Positions 2,290 through 19,352 of a DNA stretch of 22,026 bases are shown in pieces; the first letter of the stretch is position 1; each line of letters starts with the position of its first letter. This DNA is from a virus. The notes under the pieces are model-generated. The model was given only the letters and a program-made list of their open reading frames with translations. It did no database searches and was not told the origin of the DNA. Where the stretch lies: IMG/VR virus record IMGVR_UViG_3300037230_000020, positions 1 to 22,026 of that record; one strand, given 5' to 3'. A program made the translations under genes and the position numbers.

Positions 2290-3240
2290 ATGGGTTTCAA
2301 TGACCACGACCACAGCGTAACGATTCCGCTTCCGCCCGAGGCTGGCGACATTGAAAGCGACAGTTTCGATCCCAACGATGAATGGATCAAGAATGCGACC
2401 GAAGAACAACAGATTGAGGCGATGCGTCGTTGGTTTTACGCCAGGTATGAGGACCCGGCTAATTCAATGCCCTATGACGGCCGAGAGGGTGGCTTCCAGT
2501 TCATCTGGGGCGGCCCATACGACCCCGATGAGGTGATCCAGGAACGCTTTAGCGCCGTGGTCCCATTCGATGTGATGAGAAGCCTGATTGAGGATTTGTG
2601 GCAAGAATGTGGAGACCAATGGGCTCCGGTTGACGTTGAAGATTTCGATTATGACGAGGAATTTGTATCACGTGTTGACGATCGAGACGAACCACTTCGA
2701 TACCTAAAGGCCAGACTCAACCAAATCGACGCTGTCCTCGGCAGCGATGCGAACGCGCGAGAACCCGATCTCGTGCTGCAAATGGCTCACGGTTCCATGA
2801 TTGCTTCCCTGGAGGCATTTCTTGCGGACACCATGACCTATTGGTTGAAGGCTGACAAGAAGGTCCTTCGCGACTTCGTTAGCCGAAACAAGGATTTCAA
2901 GAAGAGGTCACTCACGCTGGATCAGGTGTTCGAACGCCTTGACCAGCTTGAATCTGAAATGGGAGTCTACCTCCAAGATCAAATGTGGCACCGTCTCGAT
3001 AAGATAAAGCCAATGTTGGTAGCGTCCCTTGGAATCGCTGTCCCGGAAATAGGCGATCTTATGAAGGCGGTTTTGGTTCGTCACGACATCGTCCATCGTG
3101 CGGGGCGCACGAGGGATGGACTATTGGTTTTAGTCACCCAGGGCGACGTTAAGCAACTGCGAGAGCTGGTACTTGGGTTTGCAACGGCTCTTGTCGAGGA
3201 CATCGATAAGAGGTTTCCACGACCCACCGAGGAGTTCTAG
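2290..3240 (+). CDS. HEPN-domain protein, candidate RNase/defence protein
   Basis: This is a 316-residue acidic soluble protein starting at the ATG at 2290 (GGGGAT upstream). Residues about 46-90 hold RRWFYARYEDPANSMPYD, then GGFQFIWGGPYDPDEVIQ, an aromatic/glycine-rich N-terminal domain that I have seen ahead of HEPN-type domains. The C-terminal half (about 150-305) is a helical bundle. Near its end lies RHDIVH at 264-269, fitting the R-x4-6-H signature of HEPN domains, whose members include metal-independent RNases in toxins, abortive-infection and CRISPR effectors. The family call rests on this motif plus the helical layout, not on a search. The gene is followed by a hairpin and then an Mrr-like nuclease on the same strand, which supports a role in defence. 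Whether it cleaves RNA is not shown. Confidence 0.7.
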   Translation: MGFNDHDHSVTIPLPPEAGDIESDSFDPNDEWIKNATEEQQIEAMRRWFYARYEDPANSMPYDGREGGFQFIWGGPYDPDEVIQERFSAVVPFDVMRSLIEDLWQECGDQWAPVDVEDFDYDEEFVSRVDDRDEPLRYLKARLNQIDAVLGSDANAREPDLVLQMAHGSMIASLEAFLADTMTYWLKADKKVLRDFVSRNKDFKKRSLTLDQVFERLDQLESEMGVYLQDQMWHRLDKIKPMLVASLGIAVPEIGDLMKAVLVRHDIVHRAGRTRDGLLVLVTQGDVKQLRELVLGFATALVEDIDKRFPRPTEEF

Positions 3241-3298
3241 ATAATGCTGACAGCAAACTTGCGGTGGTTCAAGATCGCAGAATGATGCAAGCGCAGAA

Positions 3299-3322
3299 AA
3301 GGCCCAGATCGCTCTGGGCCTT
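3299..3322 (-). terminator. Hairpin with U-tract on the minus strand
   Basis: A perfect 10-bp stem, AAGGCCCAGA/TCTGGGCCTT, has the four-base loop TCGC. On the minus strand it is followed by TTTTCTGCGC, a typical terminator tail; on the plus strand no U-run follows beyond the stem. It sits between the HEPN gene and the nuclease gene. No minus-strand gene lies immediately upstream of it in that orientation, so it may be bidirectional or may block leftward read-through. Confidence 0.6.
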
Positions 3323-3389
3323 CGCTGTCTGTGGGCTTTCCTTCTGGGATACACGGCAATCTTTCAACCTGCCGTCGTATCCTATTTCT

Positions 3390-4304
3390 GTGACCAACAC
3401 GGGCTCCGTTACGGTGAGCAGTAAGGGCTACGAGCTTCTCGTACGCGAAATCTACCAGCAAATGCTCGACCAGGACCAAGCGGTGAACGTAGTCGTGCAA
3501 CACAACGTTCAAATGCAGGGTCGTGCCACAAGTCATCAAATTGATGTCTACTGGGAGTTTTACCTCGGCGGAGTTACCCACAAAGTAGCTGTTCAAGCGA
3601 AAAGGTGGAAAAGCCCAATTCGCAAGGGAGATGTCCTCACATTCAAGGGCGTCCTTGAAGATCTTCCCGGGACCATAGGAATTATGGTTTCGTCGTCACC
3701 TTATCAGAAGGGCGCAGTTGAGGTAGCGGCAGCCGCCGGGATCACGATTTGCAATCTACAAGAAAACCTCGCTCCATCTTTCTTTTCTATCCCCGGCACA
3801 ACGGTCACCATCGCGATCAAAGGATTCCTGCAGGCACCGAACGGCAGTCATCTTGGCATGGTTGCCGACGTCTATCAAAACATTCCCACAGTTTCCGATC
3901 TGGCGCTAAAGGCTGATAGCGAATGGCACCAGGCGAATGATCCATTGCCTGAGTCAATGATTCCTGGGGCAACGACATTGATCAATATCCCTAACCCGGC
4001 TCAGTTTTACGATCAGGACGGAAAGGAGCTGATTACCCTAACGAGAATCTTAGGGGGATTTTACGAAGAAATGCATCGAGAGGGTCAGATGAGCGCCCGG
4101 AAGACTCACAGGTTCGAAAACCCCACATTCTTAAAACTGCTCAACCCTCCAATGACAATTAAAGAGGAGAGCATATCAGCTACCATCGAGCTTACTCCCA
4201 AGACAACAGAGGTAGTGCTCAAGGCGACGAACGTTGCTGTATTTATCCTTAAGAATCTCCTCACCGGAGCAGAACATCACGTTGTTACCAGAAACCCTAG
4301 CTAA
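3390..4304 (+). CDS. Mrr-type restriction endonuclease-like protein
   Basis: With the GTG at 3390 the protein has 304 residues; GTG 3414 is an alternative. An ATG at 3264 is in frame but would translate straight through the hairpin at 3299-3322 into an unlikely peptide, so it is rejected. Residues about 10-125 match the Mrr catalytic fold: KGYELLVREIY with the helix glutamate at E15, then SHQIDVYWEF with the metal-binding aspartate at D52, then VQAKRW with the Q-x-K pair at 69-71, then FKGVLEDL and a GIMVSSSPYQKGAVEVA strand-helix. Enzymes of this family cut DNA, often modified DNA (type IV restriction). The C-terminal 180 residues are beta-rich and may give target specificity, but are not recognised. 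It follows the HEPN gene and overlaps the 33-residue gene at TAATG. Confidence 0.8.
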   Translation: MTNTGSVTVSSKGYELLVREIYQQMLDQDQAVNVVVQHNVQMQGRATSHQIDVYWEFYLGGVTHKVAVQAKRWKSPIRKGDVLTFKGVLEDLPGTIGIMVSSSPYQKGAVEVAAAAGITICNLQENLAPSFFSIPGTTVTIAIKGFLQAPNGSHLGMVADVYQNIPTVSDLALKADSEWHQANDPLPESMIPGATTLINIPNPAQFYDQDGKELITLTRILGGFYEEMHREGQMSARKTHRFENPTFLKLLNPPMTIKEESISATIELTPKTTEVVLKATNVAVFILKNLLTGAEHHVVTRNPS

Positions 4305-4405
4305 TGAACGAGCGCAGAGTCTGGGCGCCGGACGCTCGCTGGGTAACCATCCTCTTTCGTGATGGCAAGCTGATCAAAGAATGGCGTGTGACTCTGGTCA
4401 AATAG
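4304..4405 (+). CDS. 33-residue micro-protein coupled to the nuclease gene
   Basis: The ATG shares its A with the stop codon of the nuclease gene (TAATG), the usual arrangement for translational coupling. No separate ribosome-binding site is visible. The product begins MNERRVWAPDARWVTILFRD and ends KEWRVTLVK: basic, with alternating hydrophobic residues, so it could form a small beta-sheet. The frame closes at TAG just before the hairpin at 4427-4446. The family is not recognised. The coupling and the protein-like composition argue for a real gene; its small size keeps confidence moderate. It may be a partner or inhibitor of the nuclease (inference). Confidence 0.5.
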   Translation: MNERRVWAPDARWVTILFRDGKLIKEWRVTLVK

Positions 4406-4426
4406 ATCACCAGGCGCGCAGAAAAA

Positions 4427-4446
4427 CCCACCGAGAAATCGGTGGG
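4427..4446 (-). terminator. Hairpin with GAAA loop, U-tract on the minus strand
   Basis: A perfect 8-bp stem, CCCACCGA/TCGGTGGG, is closed by GAAA on the plus strand. On the minus strand it is followed by TTTTTCTGCGC, making a textbook terminator in that direction. On the plus strand its 3' arm (GGTGGG) merges with GGGAG, the only ribosome-binding-like sequence ahead of the gene at 4461, so in sense transcripts it could also hide that site. Confidence 0.65.
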
Positions 4447-4460
4447 AGTATACTCCGCTG

Positions 4461-5036
4461 ATGCTGCCTAGCGTCACTGTCGAACTCGTAAAAGCAGAAT
4501 GCGATGCGTTTGACCGGGAGAACGAACTGATCGAGGAGGCACTGAAGCAACTCCGAGCCCAGTTCCCCCTCAACACCGATGCCTCCCACGTACTCTTGAA
4601 GATTGTGGTTCTGAACCAGCTCTACAACACGCGGATAAACAGCGTGGACATGGAGCCTCTCGCCACGTACATAGCCGGGCTTGGCATCGACCCCCTTCTG
4701 GACCAGGGATCGTTCGTAGCCGTTGATCGCATCACAATCTGCCCTCCACTGCGGAGGTATCTCTCGTTTGCCTCCAAGTTCTGTAGCTGGCACAACCCCA
4801 CGGCCTATTCCATCTATGACGGCAATGCCAGAGCATGTCTTTGGGCCTACCAGCAGCGAGATAAGTTCGGAAAGTTCCAACAACAGGACCTTCTGGTCTA
4901 TGCGAAGTTCTGCGCAGCAGTGGTCAGCTTTAGCAGTCACTATGGGCTGGACAGTTTTAACCTCAAGCAACTGGACAAGTTCCTATTTCGCGCGGGAGGC
5001 CGGATTCTCCAGACAGGGAAAAGCCCCAGCCGATAA
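4461..5036 (+). CDS. Conserved-looking helical protein of unknown function
   Basis: This 191-residue soluble protein is mostly helical. The start ATG at 4461 has only a distant GGGAG upstream, lying in the arm of the preceding hairpin. Recognisable blocks are ASHVLLKIVVLNQLYNTRIN (about 41-60), LSFASKFCSWHNPTAYSIYD (about 101-120), RACLWAYQQRD, and a C-terminal GLDSFNLKQLDKFLF. I know the combination of VVLNQLY.TRI, SFASK.CSWHNP..Y.IYD and LDKFL as a family of unnamed bacterial proteins; it reminds me of helix-hairpin-helix DNA-binding or base-excision folds, but I cannot confirm this. It follows the nuclease and micro-protein on the same strand and may be part of the same cassette. Its TAA stop lies in the loop of the next hairpin. 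Confidence 0.75.
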   Translation: MLPSVTVELVKAECDAFDRENELIEEALKQLRAQFPLNTDASHVLLKIVVLNQLYNTRINSVDMEPLATYIAGLGIDPLLDQGSFVAVDRITICPPLRRYLSFASKFCSWHNPTAYSIYDGNARACLWAYQQRDKFGKFQQQDLLVYAKFCAAVVSFSSHYGLDSFNLKQLDKFLFRAGGRILQTGKSPSR

Positions 5037-5044
5037 GGCTGGGG
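5024..5044 (-). terminator. Hairpin at the 3' end of the 4461-5036 gene
   Basis: An 8-bp perfect stem, CCCCAGCC/GGCTGGGG, surrounds the loop GATAA, which contains the stop codon of the gene. On the minus strand it is followed by CTTTTCC; on the plus strand no U-run follows. It is the third hairpin in this block with its U-tract on the minus strand. Confidence 0.5.
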
Positions 5045-5144
5045 GATCAGTTCGTCCACGACGAGTTGCGCCCGTCGAAAGTCGAGTAGTCTCTGGATGC
5101 CGTGTAGTCTACAATTCCAACATCCTCGTTCAGGAGCCATTCAC

Positions 5145-5558
5145 ATGAAGCGTATCGCTCTTCTTGCGGTCGTCATCGGCTTTGGAATGTCTACTCACCC
5201 GGCAATTGCTCAACAGACTCCTACTCAGGAACCGACCGGAGCCCAACTACTTGATGAGTGCCAAGTAGTCGCGAAGGGAGGCCCCAACGCCCCCGAGGAT
5301 GCTGCCGAGTTGGCGAAAGGTATGCACTGTTTTGGGTACCTGAGTGGTGTGGCAGACACCTATGTGTTCTGGAAATATACGAACAATACCCAAAAAGCGA
5401 AGGTGTATATCCCCGCCTGTATCCCCGAAGAAGCGACCACCTTCGAACTTGCAAGGGTCGTCGTGAAGTATTTGAACGACCACCCGAATCAACTGCACAA
5501 TAGCTACAGGCTCTTGGTCATGCTTGCGCTTGAGGACGCCTATCCGTGCAAACATTAG
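5145..5558 (+). CDS. Exported Rap1a/Tai-family protein
   Basis: This 137-residue protein starts at an ATG with AGGAG nine bases upstream. Residues 1-22 (MKRIALLAVVIGFGMSTHPA then IAQ) are a Sec signal peptide with a likely cut after AIA. The mature part has the family layout: LLDECQV, then MHCFGYLSGVADTY, then YIPACIP, then VVVKYLNDHPNQLH and a last helix ending AYPCKH. Four cysteines in the mature part fit two disulfides in the periplasm. Named members (Rap1a, Tai4) neutralise type VI secretion amidase effectors; most relatives are uncharacterised, and no effector or secretion gene is visible here, so an immunity role is only a possibility. It opens a run of five exported or membrane proteins on the plus strand. 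Confidence 0.85.
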   Translation: MKRIALLAVVIGFGMSTHPAIAQQTPTQEPTGAQLLDECQVVAKGGPNAPEDAAELAKGMHCFGYLSGVADTYVFWKYTNNTQKAKVYIPACIPEEATTFELARVVVKYLNDHPNQLHNSYRLLVMLALEDAYPCKH

Positions 5559-5576
5559 CGGAACGTGAGGCAGCAC

Positions 5577-6137
5577 ATGCATTCGATTTGTTGGTTTTGG
5601 ACGACCGGCATTCACAATCCGGAATGGGTACAAGCCGTTGCAGCGGTAGCGGTCGTGGTGCTCACGTTTGTTACGCTCGTCGTACTTTGTATTTATGCGT
5701 ACGATACTCACACTCTGGCAAGGGCAAGCGTCGAGCAGATAGATTTAGTCAAGCAGGACAATGCCTTTCGCGCTATGCGGAGTTTTCACATCGCATACGA
5801 TTGCATCTTTAAGGTTCAGGGTGACCTGACCGCCCTTGCACAATCCTTTTTGGATGGCACCATAGGGACTAAGCCGCAAGCGCCAATCTATCCAGACAAC
5901 TGGCCTGATGTTGCATCCGCGCTCAATCAACGCATCCCGAGTACAATTCCGCCGACAATTTCACTCGGGATAAAGCTAAGGAAAGTTGATTTCGCGTTTA
6001 GAGAATACGAAAGCGCGTCGAACACTGATGACAAACAAGCGCGAGAAATCAGCGTTCACAAGGCAACTAAGGATGCGGGGGAAGAATGCAAGAGACTATC
6101 TGACGAACTGCCAAAATCTGTCACGCCAAAGGACTGA
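5577..6137 (+). CDS. Single-pass membrane protein, function unknown
   Basis: The ATG at 5577 is preferred because GAGG lies six bases ahead of it; the GTG at 5565 would add four residues. The product has 186 residues. One long membrane segment (QAVAAVAVVVLTFVTLVVLC, about residues 19-38) is followed by YAYDTHTLARASVEQIDLVK, a helix of the kind seen after the membrane anchor in many small prophage and accessory proteins. The soluble part is helical with PTISLGIKLRKVDFAFREYE and a polar C-terminus. It lies 18 bases after the Rap1a-like gene and seven bases before the next start, so it is part of the same operon. No catalytic motif is seen. Confidence 0.75.
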   Translation: MHSICWFWTTGIHNPEWVQAVAAVAVVVLTFVTLVVLCIYAYDTHTLARASVEQIDLVKQDNAFRAMRSFHIAYDCIFKVQGDLTALAQSFLDGTIGTKPQAPIYPDNWPDVASALNQRIPSTIPPTISLGIKLRKVDFAFREYESASNTDDKQAREISVHKATKDAGEECKRLSDELPKSVTPKD

Positions 6138-7969: not shown

Positions 7970-9115
7970 TTATTCGATATACAAACTGTTGAAATACAAA
8001 TCGATGTAACCAGTTAGGGTTGAAGACCCTGAACAATTAAACTGCACCTGCACCAGGGCGAGGTTCTGTCCGGATGGCACACTCAGCGTGTAGACGGCCT
8101 GCACCAGTTGGCCGGTCTCGCTGAACATCGTCGTCCAAGTTGAGCCACCGTCGAGTGACGCCGTGATGGTTGCCAAGCATCCGGTACCGTAAGCGAGCGT
8201 AGACGCCGACACATAGAGCTTGGCCGCTGCGGTAGTGGTGAGCGCAGGCCATGAATGGTACAACGCTTGACTGGTGTACGCGCCCGGTCCCGAGCCACCC
8301 ATGTAGGTGTCGTCGCCGGGGTTCCCGTCGTAGCAGTAAGTCGGGTAAATCACCGAGGATGTGCCACTGGTGGTCGGGGCGGAAGTTGGACGATAGACGA
8401 TTCCAGCGCCTGACGGAGTGAGCAGAGAACCAATCAGGTAATAGCCGAGCTTGTTCAGGAAGTCGGCGGTGTTCTGCGTCGGAATCGGCGTGATTGCACC
8501 ACCGATAAAGCTCGGGTCGATGTAGTAGACCCAATACATCTGATTCTGGTTCAACCCGGTCAGCGTATACGGGCCTGCGGGGAGACAAGCGACTGACACA
8601 ACGAGTCCAATGCTGGCCGTGAATGGATCGACAACGATGTCAGCCAGACCGCCCGGCTCTGCATAACCGATTAGCGTTCCAGCGGTGGTAACAGGTATGC
8701 CGCTGGTCACAATAATGGCCAGGGTGATTGAGATGAGAACGTTATCGACTTCGACCCAGGTGGAGAATGTTCCGGATGGACGAAGTGAACGAATCCTGAA
8801 GTTATAGAGTTGACCCGCTATGACATTGCCCACGAACGCAGCGAACAGAGCCACATCGACGGTCCCACCAGCTAACCATGCACCTGCTCCGACCAATTGG
8901 TATTGAATCTGAATCTGCGTGACGGTGTTATCCAGCGGTGCAGTCCACTCTATTTCAGCGCGCGGGAACACATTGCCATCTGCACCAACGACAGCGGTCG
9001 CTGCCGAACTGATGACAGTCATCGACCCCGGAGGCGCTGGCGACAGTGGAATCTGTGAGGGCATCGCCGGTTGGTCTGTAATCAAAAGCTCCTCTGTCAT
9101 GTTCCACTCGTACAC
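7970..9115 (-). CDS. C-terminal part of tail tip protein, FN3-like, split off by an in-frame stop
   Basis: This is a 381-residue protein if GTG 9115 is used; ATG 9100 is the alternative. The reading frame itself is open from 9154, directly after the TAA of the upstream tail tip gene, in the same frame. The codons between (encoding ISTSITVNETDPS) already look like tail tip protein sequence, yet offer no ATG, GTG or TTG start and no good ribosome-binding site. Residues about 25-135 resemble a fibronectin type III domain: AEIEWTAPLDNTVTQIQIQY, then LYNFRIRSLRPSGTFSTWVE. The rest is glycine- and threonine-rich and beta-rich, ending in a jelly-roll-like segment (TLTGYIDLYFNSLYIE), as in receptor-binding or tip-associated proteins. 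It most likely is the C-terminal region of one tail tip protein; see the gene at 9155-11047. Confidence 0.7.
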   Translation of the reverse strand: MYEWNMTEELLITDQPAMPSQIPLSPAPPGSMTVISSAATAVVGADGNVFPRAEIEWTAPLDNTVTQIQIQYQLVGAGAWLAGGTVDVALFAAFVGNVIAGQLYNFRIRSLRPSGTFSTWVEVDNVLISITLAIIVTSGIPVTTAGTLIGYAEPGGLADIVVDPFTASIGLVVSVACLPAGPYTLTGLNQNQMYWVYYIDPSFIGGAITPIPTQNTADFLNKLGYYLIGSLLTPSGAGIVYRPTSAPTTSGTSSVIYPTYCYDGNPGDDTYMGGSGPGAYTSQALYHSWPALTTTAAAKLYVSASTLAYGTGCLATITASLDGGSTWTTMFSETGQLVQAVYTLSVPSGQNLALVQVQFNCSGSSTLTGYIDLYFNSLYIE

Positions 9116-9154
9116 GCTCGGGTCAGTTTCATTGACGGTGATGGACGTTGAGAT

Positions 9155-11047
9155 TTAAAGAGCGCCGTCATCGCCTGCGGAGTTCCGCATGGGCTGGACA
9201 ATCAACTGGGTTTTGTCTACTTCGAGGTATTTGTCGGTCCAACCAAACTGACCGAAGGTGAACTCCATCACATCGCACGGCTGCATCTGCCATGCGGCCA
9301 GACTCATAGGGAATGATCCAGAGCCTTGCTGCCTGTTGCGAAGCAGGCCAATCATGGCGACACGCTGGGCTTGTACAACCGAGATGACGCCGCGAAAGGT
9401 CAGTTCCTGCGGCAATGTGATACCACCGTCCTCCATCAGGAACTGGTTGGCTGCGAATCCGTGCAGAACGTCTTGAGCTACCTGCGGATAGTTGGTCATC
9501 GACCAACTGAGAGCCCACAAGTTATTGGTAACTCCGTAATAGAATCCATTGCGGTCGAAGTAGTTGCCGGTGAGTCCATAAGGATAGTTTGGTGCAAGAT
9601 ACGTCCCATTGACGCAGTTCACGAGGTCGCGTTGCTTGCGATAGTCCGACCAGTCCACATCGCCAACGAGAGTGCTCTCATTGAAGGAGAAGCTCGGCCC
9701 CTGCCAGTAAGCGGGGATGATGTTCCACTCACCACCGACGCGGGAGAGCTTGCCCGCTGCGCTGGTCATCATTTGAGCGAGGATGTCTCCCGGACTGGTC
9801 GCAGTATCCCAGTGCATGTGTTGCTGATAGTTGGCCTCATTGCCCTGCGAGGTCATAATCAATTCGTCGCACACGTTGGCCGCTGCGATGAGTTGAGCCT
9901 GATTCACGGAGCTATCCCCGAGACCGAATGACTGGATGGGGTCCGAGGTCAGAATGTCATTGACTTCCAGAGCCCAGTTCGAACTGAAGCTAGTCGAGCC
10001 GGTGCGCGGATCATAGAGCGGCTTGCCGTTGACGGTAATCCGAATCTCAGGCTGTGATGGAAACTGAGTTGTGTTGGCACCGACGTTGATGTACAGATAC
10101 GCGATGCCCTGTCCAATTGCGGTAGTCGGCCATGCCGGATCGTTGTAGTGAAGCTCTTGGCAGTAATCGCCGGCAACTTGGTCGCCGAATCGCGCCTCGA
10201 CATACACGAGGGATGAGCTTCCACCACCGCCGCCACCACTGAAGTTGTAATGCTGACCACCGGGACCGATGCCGTAGCCTAGACCATACCCCGGCTGTGT
10301 TGGGTCTTGCTGATCCGCAGCGGCAGCGCCACCGAACGTATATGCGCCCTGAATCTCTGCTGTCGCGTGGGTGTAGCCTGTGCCACCCGTAATCATGGTG
10401 ACAGTCCAAGCGCCTACAACAAAGTTAGTTCCATACCCACCCGCTCCGGAGTTAGTCGCCCAGGCAGAAGCTCCCGTGCCATCGCCGACGATGCGGACAC
10501 GGAAGCGAGTCGGCTTGACGTTGGTGAAACCACTGCCGCCCGTCGCTGTTATGCCGGTGATTGCTCCAGCAGAGATTGTGACCACCGTTGTCGGCGGTGT
10601 CGAGACAGCACCACATCCGATGTTCGCGGCCATGCCGTTCTGAGAGAAGTAGACGACGCGGCCATCAAGGTAAATGTTGATGTATGCGTCAAGTTCGTGG
10701 TTGGCGACGGCAACGACGAAGTTATAGATATAGTTCCCACCTGACCCACCCGCTCCGGTCGTTGACTCGTAGACGATTGCCCCACCGACTCTTTGCTGAC
10801 CCATGATGTACTGTCTTGGTTGAGCAAGGGAACGAGTCGAGATGTTCATGCCGCGATTGGAAGTAAGAGACTCGGCGATGGAGCCCGCAAGCATTCCAAT
10901 GCCAGCACCAGCCAGACCAGTCTCGATAGCACCGAGCGCACCGGACAGGAACAGACCAGCGGGGATAAGCTCGGGCGCAAGGATGGCAGTGCCGATGAGT
11001 AACGCATCCGCTGCGAGGATTGCTGCACCTGCGACGGCCTTGCTCAT
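9155..11047 (-). CDS. Phage tail tip / host specificity protein (gpJ-like)
   Basis: This 630-residue protein starts at ATG 11047, which overlaps the stop of the previous gene as ATGA; a GTG nine bases earlier is possible. Residues 1-55 are hydrophobic and glycine/alanine-rich (ILAADALLIGTAILAPELIP), usual for the N-terminus of tip proteins that close the tail lumen. The body has ARPRQ-like SLAQPRQYIMGQQRVGGAIV, a glycine-rich insertion (about 165-280), KPLYDPRTGS, and the later DVDWSDYRKQRDLVNCVNGT and LPQELTFRGV segments typical of gpJ-like and gene-transfer-agent hub proteins. It forms the tip that meets the host receptor. It ends at TAA (9157-9155); the same frame continues with related sequence, so it appears cut short. 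Confidence 0.85.
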   Translation of the reverse strand: MSKAVAGAAILAADALLIGTAILAPELIPAGLFLSGALGAIETGLAGAGIGMLAGSIAESLTSNRGMNISTRSLAQPRQYIMGQQRVGGAIVYESTTGAGGSGGNYIYNFVVAVANHELDAYINIYLDGRVVYFSQNGMAANIGCGAVSTPPTTVVTISAGAITGITATGGSGFTNVKPTRFRVRIVGDGTGASAWATNSGAGGYGTNFVVGAWTVTMITGGTGYTHATAEIQGAYTFGGAAAADQQDPTQPGYGLGYGIGPGGQHYNFSGGGGGGSSSLVYVEARFGDQVAGDYCQELHYNDPAWPTTAIGQGIAYLYINVGANTTQFPSQPEIRITVNGKPLYDPRTGSTSFSSNWALEVNDILTSDPIQSFGLGDSSVNQAQLIAAANVCDELIMTSQGNEANYQQHMHWDTATSPGDILAQMMTSAAGKLSRVGGEWNIIPAYWQGPSFSFNESTLVGDVDWSDYRKQRDLVNCVNGTYLAPNYPYGLTGNYFDRNGFYYGVTNNLWALSWSMTNYPQVAQDVLHGFAANQFLMEDGGITLPQELTFRGVISVVQAQRVAMIGLLRNRQQGSGSFPMSLAAWQMQPCDVMEFTFGQFGWTDKYLEVDKTQLIVQPMRNSAGDDGAL

Positions 11048-15092: not shown

Positions 15093-16571
15093 TTAATAGT
15101 TCGCGTTTTGGTACTGGCCTTCAAGGCCGTTCATCTCAAAGTGCTTGAGGACAGCATTCTCGGTGGTGTTATAGAACACGTCATAAAGCAGAGTCGTGGA
15201 TGCTGGCAGCGTGGCTGTCATCGTGACCGTGGTCGAGTTCACTGTGCAGGTAGCTGAACTGGCGTTGATGGCGACGTTCATCACGGCGGGAGTGGTCGAC
15301 GGAGCCACGCCGATAGAAGTCACAGTCTGTGAGGTTCCATTCGCCGTCACGCATTCATAGTTGGTATCCGACGCCACGGTCGAGAACCGGATGAGAACGT
15401 ATGAGCAAGCAGGATTGTCACCGGCGATCAGCGTGTTTACCGAGCATGAGTTTCCCAGCAGTCCCATCCATTGACGCACCGTTGCGTAGTCACCAGCGGC
15501 TGCATAAGCCATGATCCAAGTCAATGTGGGTTGCTTGCTGGCTAGATAGGGTGCGCTGTATCCATACCACCCAGCGGAGGAGCCTGTGGTTGCTGCCGAG
15601 GTCGCTTCCAGTAGTAGCGGCGTGGTCGTAGTGGCTGAAGCAAGAGCCGGTGTGCCGTTGGCGGATGTCATATAGTCGCCCTGGCAAACCCATGCTGGAG
15701 TAGGAGACGCGAAAGTACCTACGACACCTATCAGGCACCGTTCAACGAAGCCATGATTGAATCCCAGATCGAAGCCGGAACCTGTTGCTCCGGTTGGGCC
15801 TGTTGCGCCAGTGGGGCCGGTAGCTCCGGTTGCCCCTGTTGATCCGGCTGGTCCCGTAGGGCCTGTGGCTCCAGTCGAGCCGTTTGTGCCGTTCGTGCCA
15901 GCGGTTCCTATGAGCCCGGTCGGGCCTGTTGGCCCGGTTGCTCCTGTAGCTCCAACAGCGCCCGTCGCGCCGGTGGGTCCAGTCAATCCAGTAGGGCCTG
16001 CCGGACCGGTCGCACCAGTGGGGCCGGTGCTTCCCGTAGCGCCGGTTGGCCCGGTTGGTCCCGCTGGACCCACGGCCAACCCAACGACCATGAGCGCAGC
16101 CTCGTTCGGCACATAGAGGTCAAGGTTGCAAGAACCGCCAGCGGAGCCTGTCGCAGCGGTACAGAATGCACCACCGCCTGTGACAGCCGGTCCAGACCCC
16201 GCTGGCTGAACGCATTGGTAGCCGATGCCGAGCAGTTGCTTGCCGTTGATGTTCGACACCACTGTGACGTTGAAACAAACGTTCTGCGGATTGGTCAGCG
16301 CAGTGTCGGCAAGCTGGAGAGAGAACGCACCATTCGTGACTTGAGCAGAAACGGCAGTGTCGATGACCTGTCCGAGTCCATTGACCCGATAGCTGATGGC
16401 AGCGCCTGAACTGTTGGTGGGAGCGAAATAGATGGTCGCGTTCGTGATGAGTGTGCCGGTTGAATCCTGAAGATGCGTGCCGCTCATTGCCACGTATCCG
16501 AGCGGAGTGGTCGCAGACGCGGGGACAGCGAACGCGAACGCAGCCAGGAGCGTGGGCAGGAGTTTCTTCAT
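15093..16571 (-). CDS. Exported collagen-like protein in the tail operon
   Basis: This 492-residue protein starts at ATG 16571 with AGGA eight bases upstream; the longer in-frame start would overlap the previous gene and hide the signal peptide. Residues 1-20 ([20 protein letters not shown]) are a clear Sec signal peptide. Residues 21-165 form a beta-rich domain ([20 protein letters not shown], then [27 protein letters not shown]) closely related to the N-terminus of the next gene upstream. Residues 168-266 are 33 unbroken Gly-X-Y triplets rich in GPT and GAT, expected to form a collagen triple helix. Residues 267-492 are a separate head with four or more cysteines and [20 protein letters not shown]. 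Collagen stalks are known in phage fibres, but a signal peptide is not; see findings. It ends two bases ahead of the tape measure ribosome-binding region. Confidence 0.85.
15774..16070 (-). repeat. Gly-X-Y coding repeat (33 triplets)
   Basis: These 297 bases encode 33 consecutive Gly-X-Y triplets without a break, mostly GPT, GAT and GPA. The DNA is a degenerate nine-base repeat (on the plus strand units such as CCGGTTGGGCCTGTTGCGCC), a substrate for slippage or unequal recombination. Confidence 0.9.
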
Positions 16572-16584
16572 ATAGGGAGTCCTA

Positions 16585-18594
16585 TTAGATAAGTGCGATC
16601 TTGTAGCACTGAACGTAGCCATCAACCGTGGTCACAACGATTTCATTCTGGCCGTCAACGATGTGCCCAATAAGAGCCGAGCCTTCACCGCCGCCCTGGA
16701 TATTGAACTGACCGTAAGGAACTCCAGTCAGAGGATTGGCAATGGTCACTGTGCCGGACATATCGACAATCACAAGCTCAACGCCACCGTTGTTGAACAC
16801 ATCACCGATCTGGATGGAACTGTTGATGGTCACGCCGTAGTAGGCTTTCCACTGCGTATGCCCGAGGTAGTCCGCGTTGACTACGAAACCCGCGTGGTCC
16901 GCGTATGTATAGGTGGAGTAGCCGCCGACCGGGGGTGAGATAGCAGCGCCATTGTCTACGCCCGCGTATGTGTCTCCATAGTTGCCGGCCGTAATCGCCA
17001 TGACCGCGCCGGTCGCTCCATTGAGAACAAAGAAGTGAGATGAGCGGCAACCGACCAATACCTGTATGGTGCCGCTGTTGTTTATATCTGCGGCGTGAAT
17101 GTAACCGTCGAGCTGGTTCGTGCCTGAGACTTGCTCGGGCATCACAGACCACTCGACCGCGCCCGTCAGGTAATTGAGGACATAGACAAAGCCGTTCACT
17201 GACTCGACTACGATGTCCAGCCAGTTGGCGGTCGGGTTGCCCGTCACGTTCATGACGAGGGGAAACGGCTCCATGTTCTCTGAGACTTCATACTTCCAGA
17301 TGATTGCGCCGGTGACCGCATTGAGCTTGAGGACTTCGCCGTCGAAGCCTGTCACATACAGGTAATAGGTGCCGGATTCATCGGAGAGCGTCCCGGCATG
17401 TTGAAAGTCGATGTCCGAGGAATAGAGCGGGGTGATGGCGTAGTGGCTGGTTGTGTTGGGGACGGTCGCCAGAGGCGCAGTCAACGTGACAGCGTGAGCA
17501 CTGACGCTGGCAACTGTTCCGGTCTCGCCCACCCCGGTACCGCTGGTGATGGTGAAGACAGCGCCGTATGTCGGGCCTTCGATGCGCGGTGAGAGAAACT
17601 CTCCCACTGCCCAGTTCTGAGTGGTGTCTGTAATCACCGTTGAGGTTGCACTGGTGACTGTGCCGGTACCTTCGCGGGTGAAAGAGTTGCTGACTTGCCA
17701 GTTGTTCGCACCGAGGTAGTTCAGACTGTGAATCTGCCCGTCGTGGGATGCGCCAAAGAAGGTCGTGTTTCCGCTGCCGTCTACGTTGCCCGCCTGAGCG
17801 CGGCCATAGTTCTGGTTACCAAACGCCTTGCGCCACATGAGCGTTCCATTGCTTGCCTGAAGTACATAGAAGTACCAGTCATATCCCTGAAAGGCTATGG
17901 CGGGAATGCCTTGGTCGGTTGTCAAGATCGGTGTCGAGTATGTCTGCCCGCCAGCGGGCATCTGATAGCTCCATTCTTGAATCACGCTGATGGAGCCGGT
18001 CGATGTGACCGGAATAGAAGACGCTGCGGGGCCTTGGGCTCCCATCGCGCCCGTTGCGCCCGTTGTTCCCTGCGGGCCTTGCGGTCCAACTGGGGATGTC
18101 AGACTCAGCGCGACCATGTTCGGCGTATAGGTATCGAAGTTGCAGGAGCCGCCAACAGAACCAGTGGCTGTTGTACACCATGCGAACGACCCGGTAACTG
18201 CGGGACCGCTGCCAGCGGGTTGAACGCAGTTATATCCGGGGCCGAGCAGATGCTTTCCAGTTACGTTGTCCGTGACGGTGACAGCGAAGCAAACGTTAGG
18301 GGCCAAGGTCAATGCCGTGTCCGCAAGCTGAATGCTAAATGCACCATTGGTAACAATGGTGCTGACCGGGGTCATAGTGGCTTGCCCGAGCCCGTTCACC
18401 TTGTAGCTAATTGGCAATCCAGAGTTATTGACCGGTGCAAAGCTGATCGTCGCAGAGGCCACCACCGTGCCCGTCGAGTCTGTGAGGTGAGACGCGCTGA
18501 CCGTGACGTACCCGAGCGGTGCCTGCGCGAGTGCCTGGATGGTGAGGCCGAGGCACACGAGTACGACCGCGCAGGCTGCACGAATAAGCTTCAT
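16585..18594 (-). CDS. Exported collagen/beta-propeller protein in the tail operon
   Basis: This 669-residue protein starts at ATG 18594 with CGGAG eight bases upstream. Residues 1-24 ([20 protein letters not shown], then ALA) are a signal peptide. Residues 25-165 are the same beta domain as in the neighbour, with matching cysteines (C102, C123, C140, C151). Residues 170-190 are seven Gly-X-Y triplets. From about 208 to the end it is a PQQ- or FG-GAP-like propeller: repeats such as [57 protein letters not shown] and [17 protein letters not shown]. Residues about 310-388 interrupt it with an insertion ([37 protein letters not shown]) of a type common in virion proteins. Function is unknown; adhesion or host-surface display is plausible. 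Confidence 0.85.
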
Positions 18595-18611: not shown

Positions 18612-18920
18612 TTAGTTGATGCTGATGGTCGGGCCGATTGCGCAGCCGCTCATCTGAAAGGCGAATCGCTCCGCAAGCTCTGTGGGGGTCTCTTCTTTGA
18701 CCTTTTGACCGAGCATGAAGTCAGAAGCGGAGAGCGGTTCCTTGGGTCTCGCCATACTGAAGTTAGCCGTGACTGAGGCGATGATGCCGCAGAGATAATT
18801 GTCTCTATCCAACTTGGCTCTATGACGATGAAGAAGTGCCGAGAACTGACGCGGCGTCAGGCACCAGAACTCAGCGTCGGATAGGGTCAGATCGTACCGT
18901 GCGGAACTCCAGAGTCCCAT
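18612..18920 (-). CDS. Second tail assembly chaperone, probably made by -1 frameshift
   Basis: The ATG at 18920 gives 102 residues, but it has no ribosome-binding site and the same frame is open back to 18974 with coding-like sequence (GPQTGPELTNAQRW) before it, overlapping the end of the first chaperone. The body matches phage tail chaperones of the gpT kind: LWSSARYDLTLSDAEFWCLT, then PRQFSALLHRHRAKLDRDNY, then ARPKEPLSASDFMLGQ. In lambda and many siphoviruses this second part is made only as an extension of the first protein by ribosomal slippage. A slip at 18959-18953 would give a fusion of about 226 residues. It precedes the two collagen genes rather than the tape measure gene, which is unusual. 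Confidence 0.75.
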   Translation of the reverse strand: MGLWSSARYDLTLSDAEFWCLTPRQFSALLHRHRAKLDRDNYLCGIIASVTANFSMARPKEPLSASDFMLGQKVKEETPTELAERFAFQMSGCAIGPTISIN

Positions 18921-18937
18921 CCATCGCTGCGCGTTTG

Positions 18938-19291
18938 TTAGCTCTGGCCCGGTTTGGGGTCCGCGTCGTCTTCTTCAGGGTCGGACTCAGCCATGCCCGC
19001 AGACCACGCTGTCAGGATCGAGCCCCATGCTTTACTGAGGTTCTTCCGATTGATGAGGGCCTTCGCTTCGGCATAAGTGACCTCGGGATGGTTCGCGTGG
19101 ATGCAGGCAAACAGCATTGACTGAACGAGGCGGATAGATGGGGAGTTGATGTCCTTGGTGCGCAGGCCGGTGAGCAAGCTGCGGTCGGTCAACTCTTCAG
19201 CAAGTGCGATGCTCTCGAAGTCGAACAGCAAAGAATACTCTTTCCCGTCAATGGTTACAGATGTAGACGGCTGGACTGGATTGTGTTTCAT
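18938..19291 (-). CDS. Tail assembly chaperone (gpG-like)
   Basis: This 117-residue protein starts at ATG 19291 with AGAGGA five bases upstream. It opens with a short beta segment typical of this family (VTIDGKEYSLLFDFESIALA) followed by helices (EELTDRSLLTGLR, RLVQSMLFACIHANHPEVTY, AEAKALINRKNL) and a helix with SILTAWSAGMAES. The C-terminus is very acidic (SDPEEDDADP) and lies at the suspected frameshift site. Proteins of this kind coat the tape measure protein during tail assembly and are absent from the finished virion. It lies 61 bases after the tube protein gene, the normal position. Confidence 0.8.
   Translation of the reverse strand: MKHNPVQPSTSVTIDGKEYSLLFDFESIALAEELTDRSLLTGLRTKDINSPSIRLVQSMLFACIHANHPEVTYAEAKALINRKNLSKAWGSILTAWSAGMAESDPEEDDADPKPGQS
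18953..18959 (-). promoter_or_regulatory. Candidate -1 frameshift site CCCCAAA
   Basis: In the frame of the first chaperone the codons are GAC CCC AAA CCG. The proline codon CCC can re-pair perfectly with CCC one base back, while AAA to CAA keeps two of three pairs. The -1 frame is closed at TGA (18977-18975) and the zero frame at TAA (18940-18938), so any shift must occur in this short interval, and CCCCAAA is the best candidate in it. It is not the classical GGGAAAG site of lambda. Confidence 0.45.
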
Positions 19292-19352
19292 TGGGTCCTC
19301 TATCGAGACAGATTGGGGAGCATTGATTGCTCAACGCGCCCCAATGGTTCAA

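Follow-up and report, generated by a model that had tools for sequence, protein, structure and literature searches.

A gpJ-like tail-tip gene interrupted by a single in-frame TAA in one metagenomic siphophage contig, probably through a recent and private nonsense change

Tail-tip proteins of the gpJ type have been solved in phages lambda (gpJ, 8iyk/8xcg), T1 (9l9p), JBD30 (8rk3) and T5 (pb3, 7zhj). In lambda gpJ, the domains HDII, HDIII and HDIV are followed by fibronectin domains, a central fibre and the receptor-binding domain (PMC10721106). Adsorption organelles are also known to be lost in a single step, as documented by the spontaneous loss-of-function lesions of lambda stf, which were found in 19 out of 21 clones and consisted of 15 frameshifts and 4 missense changes (PMC2762979).

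The stretch of DNA analysed here, called the window hereafter, is the 22,026-base IMG/VR virus record IMGVR_UViG_3300037230_000020, a soil-phage contig. Its tail genes follow the order also seen for gpJ-like tips, namely tape measure, distal tail proteins, DUF6950 and tip: a large ORF in the position of the tape measure (15083-12759; named from its size and position, its Pfam match being sub-threshold only), a distal tail gene (12711-12058), a tail protein gene (12113-11499), a DUF6950 gene (11511-11044) and the tip gene (11047-9155), which thus lies after the tape measure and distal tail proteins. The first half of the tip gene matches the phrog_5616 tail fiber protein (E=9e-41). When the minus strand was translated from 11047 to 6501, the tip ORF ran from ATG 11047 through 630 codons to a TAA at 9157-9155, after which 394 more codons followed in the unchanged frame up to the natural TAA at 7972-7970 (Table 1). 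This agrees with the original prediction, made from the letters of the DNA, of two same-frame ORFs (11047-9158 and 9154-7973) split by one TAA. Its placement of the first possible starts was likewise borne out by the ORF list and the translation, the first ATG, GTG or TTG beyond the TAA being GTG 9115 in that list, followed by ATG 9100 as the second usable one.

Table 1. Features of the interrupted tip gene (window coordinates)
Feature	Position	Strand	Basis
gpJ-like tail-tip/baseplate-hub protein, N-terminal part, 630 codons	9158..11047	-	ORF, phrog_5616, identity to L002, L002 model
In-frame TAA breaking the tip gene; sense in relatives, mainly Ser or Ala	9155..9157	-	Translation and alignment
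C-terminal part, 394 codons: remainder of the last hub strand, then a fibronectin-III-like domain and distal beta-rich domains	7973..9154	-	
Natural TAA stop of the full-length tip gene	7970..7972	-	L002 ORF stops at the matching place
First possible restart codon GTG, weak RBS	9113..9115	-	
Next ATG that could serve for a restart; RBS-like pairing moderate; no conservation, L002 having Glu here	9098..9100	-	

Searches of IMG/VR with both halves retrieved a closest relative with an intact tip, L002 (84% identity over the whole first half), and five further contigs, L003-L007 (40-52% over the second half). Identity to L002 is 84-87% upstream of the stop, over the N-terminal 626 residues, and about 70% downstream. 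In all six relatives the two halves form one open frame at the junction, and the stop fills exactly one alignment column. The relatives carry a sense codon there, usually for Ser or Ala and in a few cases for Arg, Tyr or His. The codons that follow the stop (ISTSITVNETDPSVYEWN..EELL), which had been likened to a stretch of tip proteins, are homologous to the ..V.ETDPSVYEW..EEL that lies directly past the junction in relatives. Positions 1-529 and 531-746 of the family profile adjoin in the window with one position missing, that of the stop, and because the two stretches abut in this way the continuity is not due to chance.

With a profile built from five relatives, matches were obtained in 79 viral contigs and at two bacterial loci. 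The site is crossed by an unbroken ORF in 78 contigs (65 clusters at 90% identity) out of 81 distinct related ones, and the ORFs of the other three cease to match the profile before reaching it: one ends together with its contig (L072), one has a diverged C-terminal part and extends to the end of its contig (L082), and in one the frame changes or ends earlier than the site (L067). Continuity also holds for two additional loci, L099 and L103, and no stop was found in the junction column of any relative among the 81 distinct contigs. The central claim of the original prediction, one family-continuous gene broken by one in-frame stop, is thus upheld by the alignment of the relatives; homologues in which the two parts are separate genes, or a lack of continuity, either of which it had named as speaking against it, did not appear in the family alignment. 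Two DNA patterns retrieved no near-identical contig from IMG/VR, where close records may have been withheld, and no other contig of this population against which to judge the allele. Among phage GenBank records there were distant tip matches only (best 32% identity among the matches listed), and the C-terminal part had no match in these records. The nearest cellular homologues of the tip gene are in Acidobacteriota genomes, an Edaphobacter MAG and Granulicella paludicola; since both bacterial profile matches belong to this phylum, the hosts of the phage probably do as well.

The consequences of the stop for the protein were considered on an AlphaFold2 model of the intact L002 tip (58 aligned sequences, mean pLDDT 80.3), from which the fold of the C-terminal part was also taken. 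The best solved matches of this model are the tip proteins of T5, T1, lambda and JBD30, lambda 8xcg_F aligning to residues 105-648 with a Z score of 20.0 and an rmsd of 4.2, and a fibronectin-III-like domain is located at about 660-770. The stop corresponds to residue 627, within strand 623-636, which is preceded, after a short turn, by strand 599-617 and is, among the long beta-strands of the hub core, the final one, ahead of the fibronectin domain. The hub fold shared with gpJ-like tip proteins was recognized on this intact homologue and not on the truncated window product, and the window lacks a complete hub core in one polypeptide, the site being unbroken in 78 of the 81 relatives. The window gene is thus a member of the gpJ-like family whose first encoded product is truncated. 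By analogy with lambda gpJ, the last hub domain of this product would be incomplete, and all parts distal to it would be missing.

One may ask whether the gene works as two cistrons, translation stopping at the TAA and restarting at GTG 9115 or ATG 9100 to give a separate C-terminal protein. The original prediction saw no ribosome-binding site there; the anti-SD duplex energy is weak for GTG 9115 (-1.5 kcal/mol), and for ATG 9100, 54 nt past the stop, it reaches -6.0 kcal/mol, which equals that of many window genes. As accepted window genes range from +0.4 to -10, many being weak at -2 to -4, the absence of such a site is a weak argument and does not discriminate between the explanations. The tip of one relative, L034, also ends soon past this region (583 aa). 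Against a split stand the absence of the start in L002, which has Glu there, and the lack of any homologue divided at this place. Moreover, the strand ISTSITVNETDPS would be complete in neither product, as a protein restarted at either codon would, according to the model, also lack the intact hub strand. The naturally short L034 tip retains this strand, and because the window products would not, a working two-gene arrangement is argued against. Reinitiation has no positive support, and we consider a working pair of cistrons unlikely. The rare ATC start that had also been suggested found no support. A frameshift or hop around the stop was rejected, the other two frames closing within about 20 codons past the site. 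On its own contig, the L034 tip (3893-5641) ends just past the hub and is followed by an ORF that looks endolysin-like by eye.

The age of the stop was approached through substitutions. Between the window and L002 tips, dS is about 1.6-2.0 and saturated; with dS so saturated, the pairwise dN/dS values are 0.06 before the stop, 0.13 after it and 0.07 over the first 100 downstream codons. With 25 outgroups, window-specific to L002-specific replacements downstream were 21:21, 9:14 and 2:6, no different from upstream (p=0.36, 0.77 and 0.68). With the four closer outgroups, the loosest criterion gave 27:26 downstream versus 12:38 upstream (p=0.008), a difference that was gone under stricter criteria (p=0.11 and 0.66) and that stems from few window changes upstream, not from a fast rate downstream. 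The 394 downstream codons are open, without accelerated decay. Because they stay so without an excess of window-specific changes, the stop looks young; on such sequence comparisons, either it would be young or the second half would still be expressed.

Expression of the second half could be achieved by programmed or host-assisted readthrough of the TAA, yielding short tips and a minority of full-length ones. The open, apparently undecayed downstream frame would fit this, as would the UAA-A context, in which the +4U of the strongest termination signal is missing (PMC5289835). However, UAA is the least leaky of the three stops in bacteria (PMC5289835), no relative keeps a stop at this codon, and a search of the window and of the L002 contig yielded no tRNA gene and hence no suppressor tRNA. 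The RNA around the stop folds no better than shuffled controls (z=+0.5; z=+0.52 in L002), and the short form would, judging from the model, be deprived of the last hub strand. A literature search for readthrough in tail-tip genes matched no paper. The readthrough option of the original prediction is therefore left without support, the stop being unconserved and neither downstream structure nor suppressor tRNA being present, and we regard it as very improbable; were it true, this would be an unusual UAA-recoded tail-tip gene. Just as improbable is a regulated or bet-hedging tip, in which rare readthrough or restart would give few complete tips and leave most particles non-adsorbing, and for which there is no positive support.

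Reassignment of TAA to a sense codon in this phage was expected to be unlikely from the start. Code variants do exist in phages, TAG reassignment being shown in crAss-like phages (PMC9523058), and a single internal TAA in a conserved gene could be read in this manner. Nevertheless, among the 14 other minus-strand ORFs that were compared, 10 end with TAA, mostly at places that have a match in the L002 contig, so that this codon is neither unused as a terminator nor present inside several genes; no further internal TAA was seen in conserved genes, and the second lesion of L003 is a TAG. Stop usage thus refutes reassignment, to which we give practically no credence.

The original prediction also proposed a nonsense mutation in a decaying prophage. 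When all ORFs were compared with the whole L002 contig, every homologous minus-strand window gene was unbroken, with ends matching those of its counterpart, and the tip stop was the only break; plus-strand genes have few homologues. Several lesions spread across genes were thus not seen among the minus-strand genes compared, so that this proposal is supported in part, the nonsense mutation standing while decay and lysogeny would be conjectural. In four neighbouring tail genes of the same contigs, amounting to about 69,000 codons, the lesions found were a single in-frame stop, in L003, and a single frameshift, in L037. Such lesions, whether true alleles or errors, are thus present at a low rate in these metagenomic contigs. 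On the 9.7-kb L003 contig, a TAG at 2565-2567 lies in a phrog_2048-type tail protein gene and a TAA at 4170-4172 in the tip gene, and in L037 the DUF6950 homologue is divided between two frames, likely by a frameshift.

Altogether, we consider it highly probable that the tip gene of the window is an ordinary gpJ-like gene, intact except for a nonsense codon that is recent and private to this contig, and the lesions of the same kind in L003 and L037 are counted as support for this reading. Of the options initially listed, nonsense mutation and sequencing error both stand, as the contig alone does not separate them: that the TAA is a real allele is somewhat better than an even bet, and a consensus or assembly error is a less likely, though serious, possibility. 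The tip gene would thus be the ordinary single-ORF baseplate-hub/tail-tip gene of a siphophage, in which this contig alone would carry a recent in-frame TAA. Translation would stop within the last strand of the hub core, and the 630-aa product could presumably neither fold as a complete hub nor provide the fibronectin and distal, presumably receptor-facing, parts. This genome would be expected to yield infectious particles only with complementation, or if the living population does not carry the TAA. Most likely, no novel means of producing two proteins is involved here, and the case calls for caution: conspicuous as the in-frame split of this metagenomic phage gene was, an alignment with about 80 relatives showed it to be confined to a single contig.

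Other features of the window may be mentioned. Two overlapping small ORFs on the minus strand (18615-18974 and 18941-19330), between the major tail protein and tail fibre genes, match Phage_tail_T/TAC-like proteins and phrog_2115, and a programmed frameshift site of the G/GT type is possible there. Two tail-fibre-like genes (15093-16625 and 16585-18594, minus strand) are related at their N-termini, with about 55% identity; one of them contains a long collagen-like repeat, and the other has a beta-propeller-like match. A search of the window for repeats of diversity-generating elements found only collagen-type repeats and one chance-like 25-nt pair. On the plus strand, a HEPN_RES_NTD1 gene (2290-3240) adjoins an Mrr-type restriction endonuclease gene (3264-4304), a possible defence pair without convincing PADLOC match, and a Rap1a-immunity-like protein (5097-5558; Pfam E=4e-21) has a distant homologue, 30% identical, at 4068-4574 of L002's contig.

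Compared with the gpJ-like tips of lambda, T1, JBD30 and T5, the L002 homologue presents the same hub fold followed by a fibronectin-III-like domain, with low identity in the fold matches (10-21%), whereas the window gene is cut within the last hub strand. The lesion resembles those of lambda stf in that a single step truncates an adsorption organelle gene of an otherwise intact phage (PMC2762979). However, stf is dispensable and its loss selectable, whereas the hub/tip protein of the window is expected to be essential, and the stf lesions are frameshifts or missense changes instead of a nonsense codon. Within the same family, the L003 contig (IMGVR_UViG_3300050122_000001) also harbors an in-frame stop in its tip gene, but at another place and accompanied by a second stop, a TAG, in a neighbouring tail gene.
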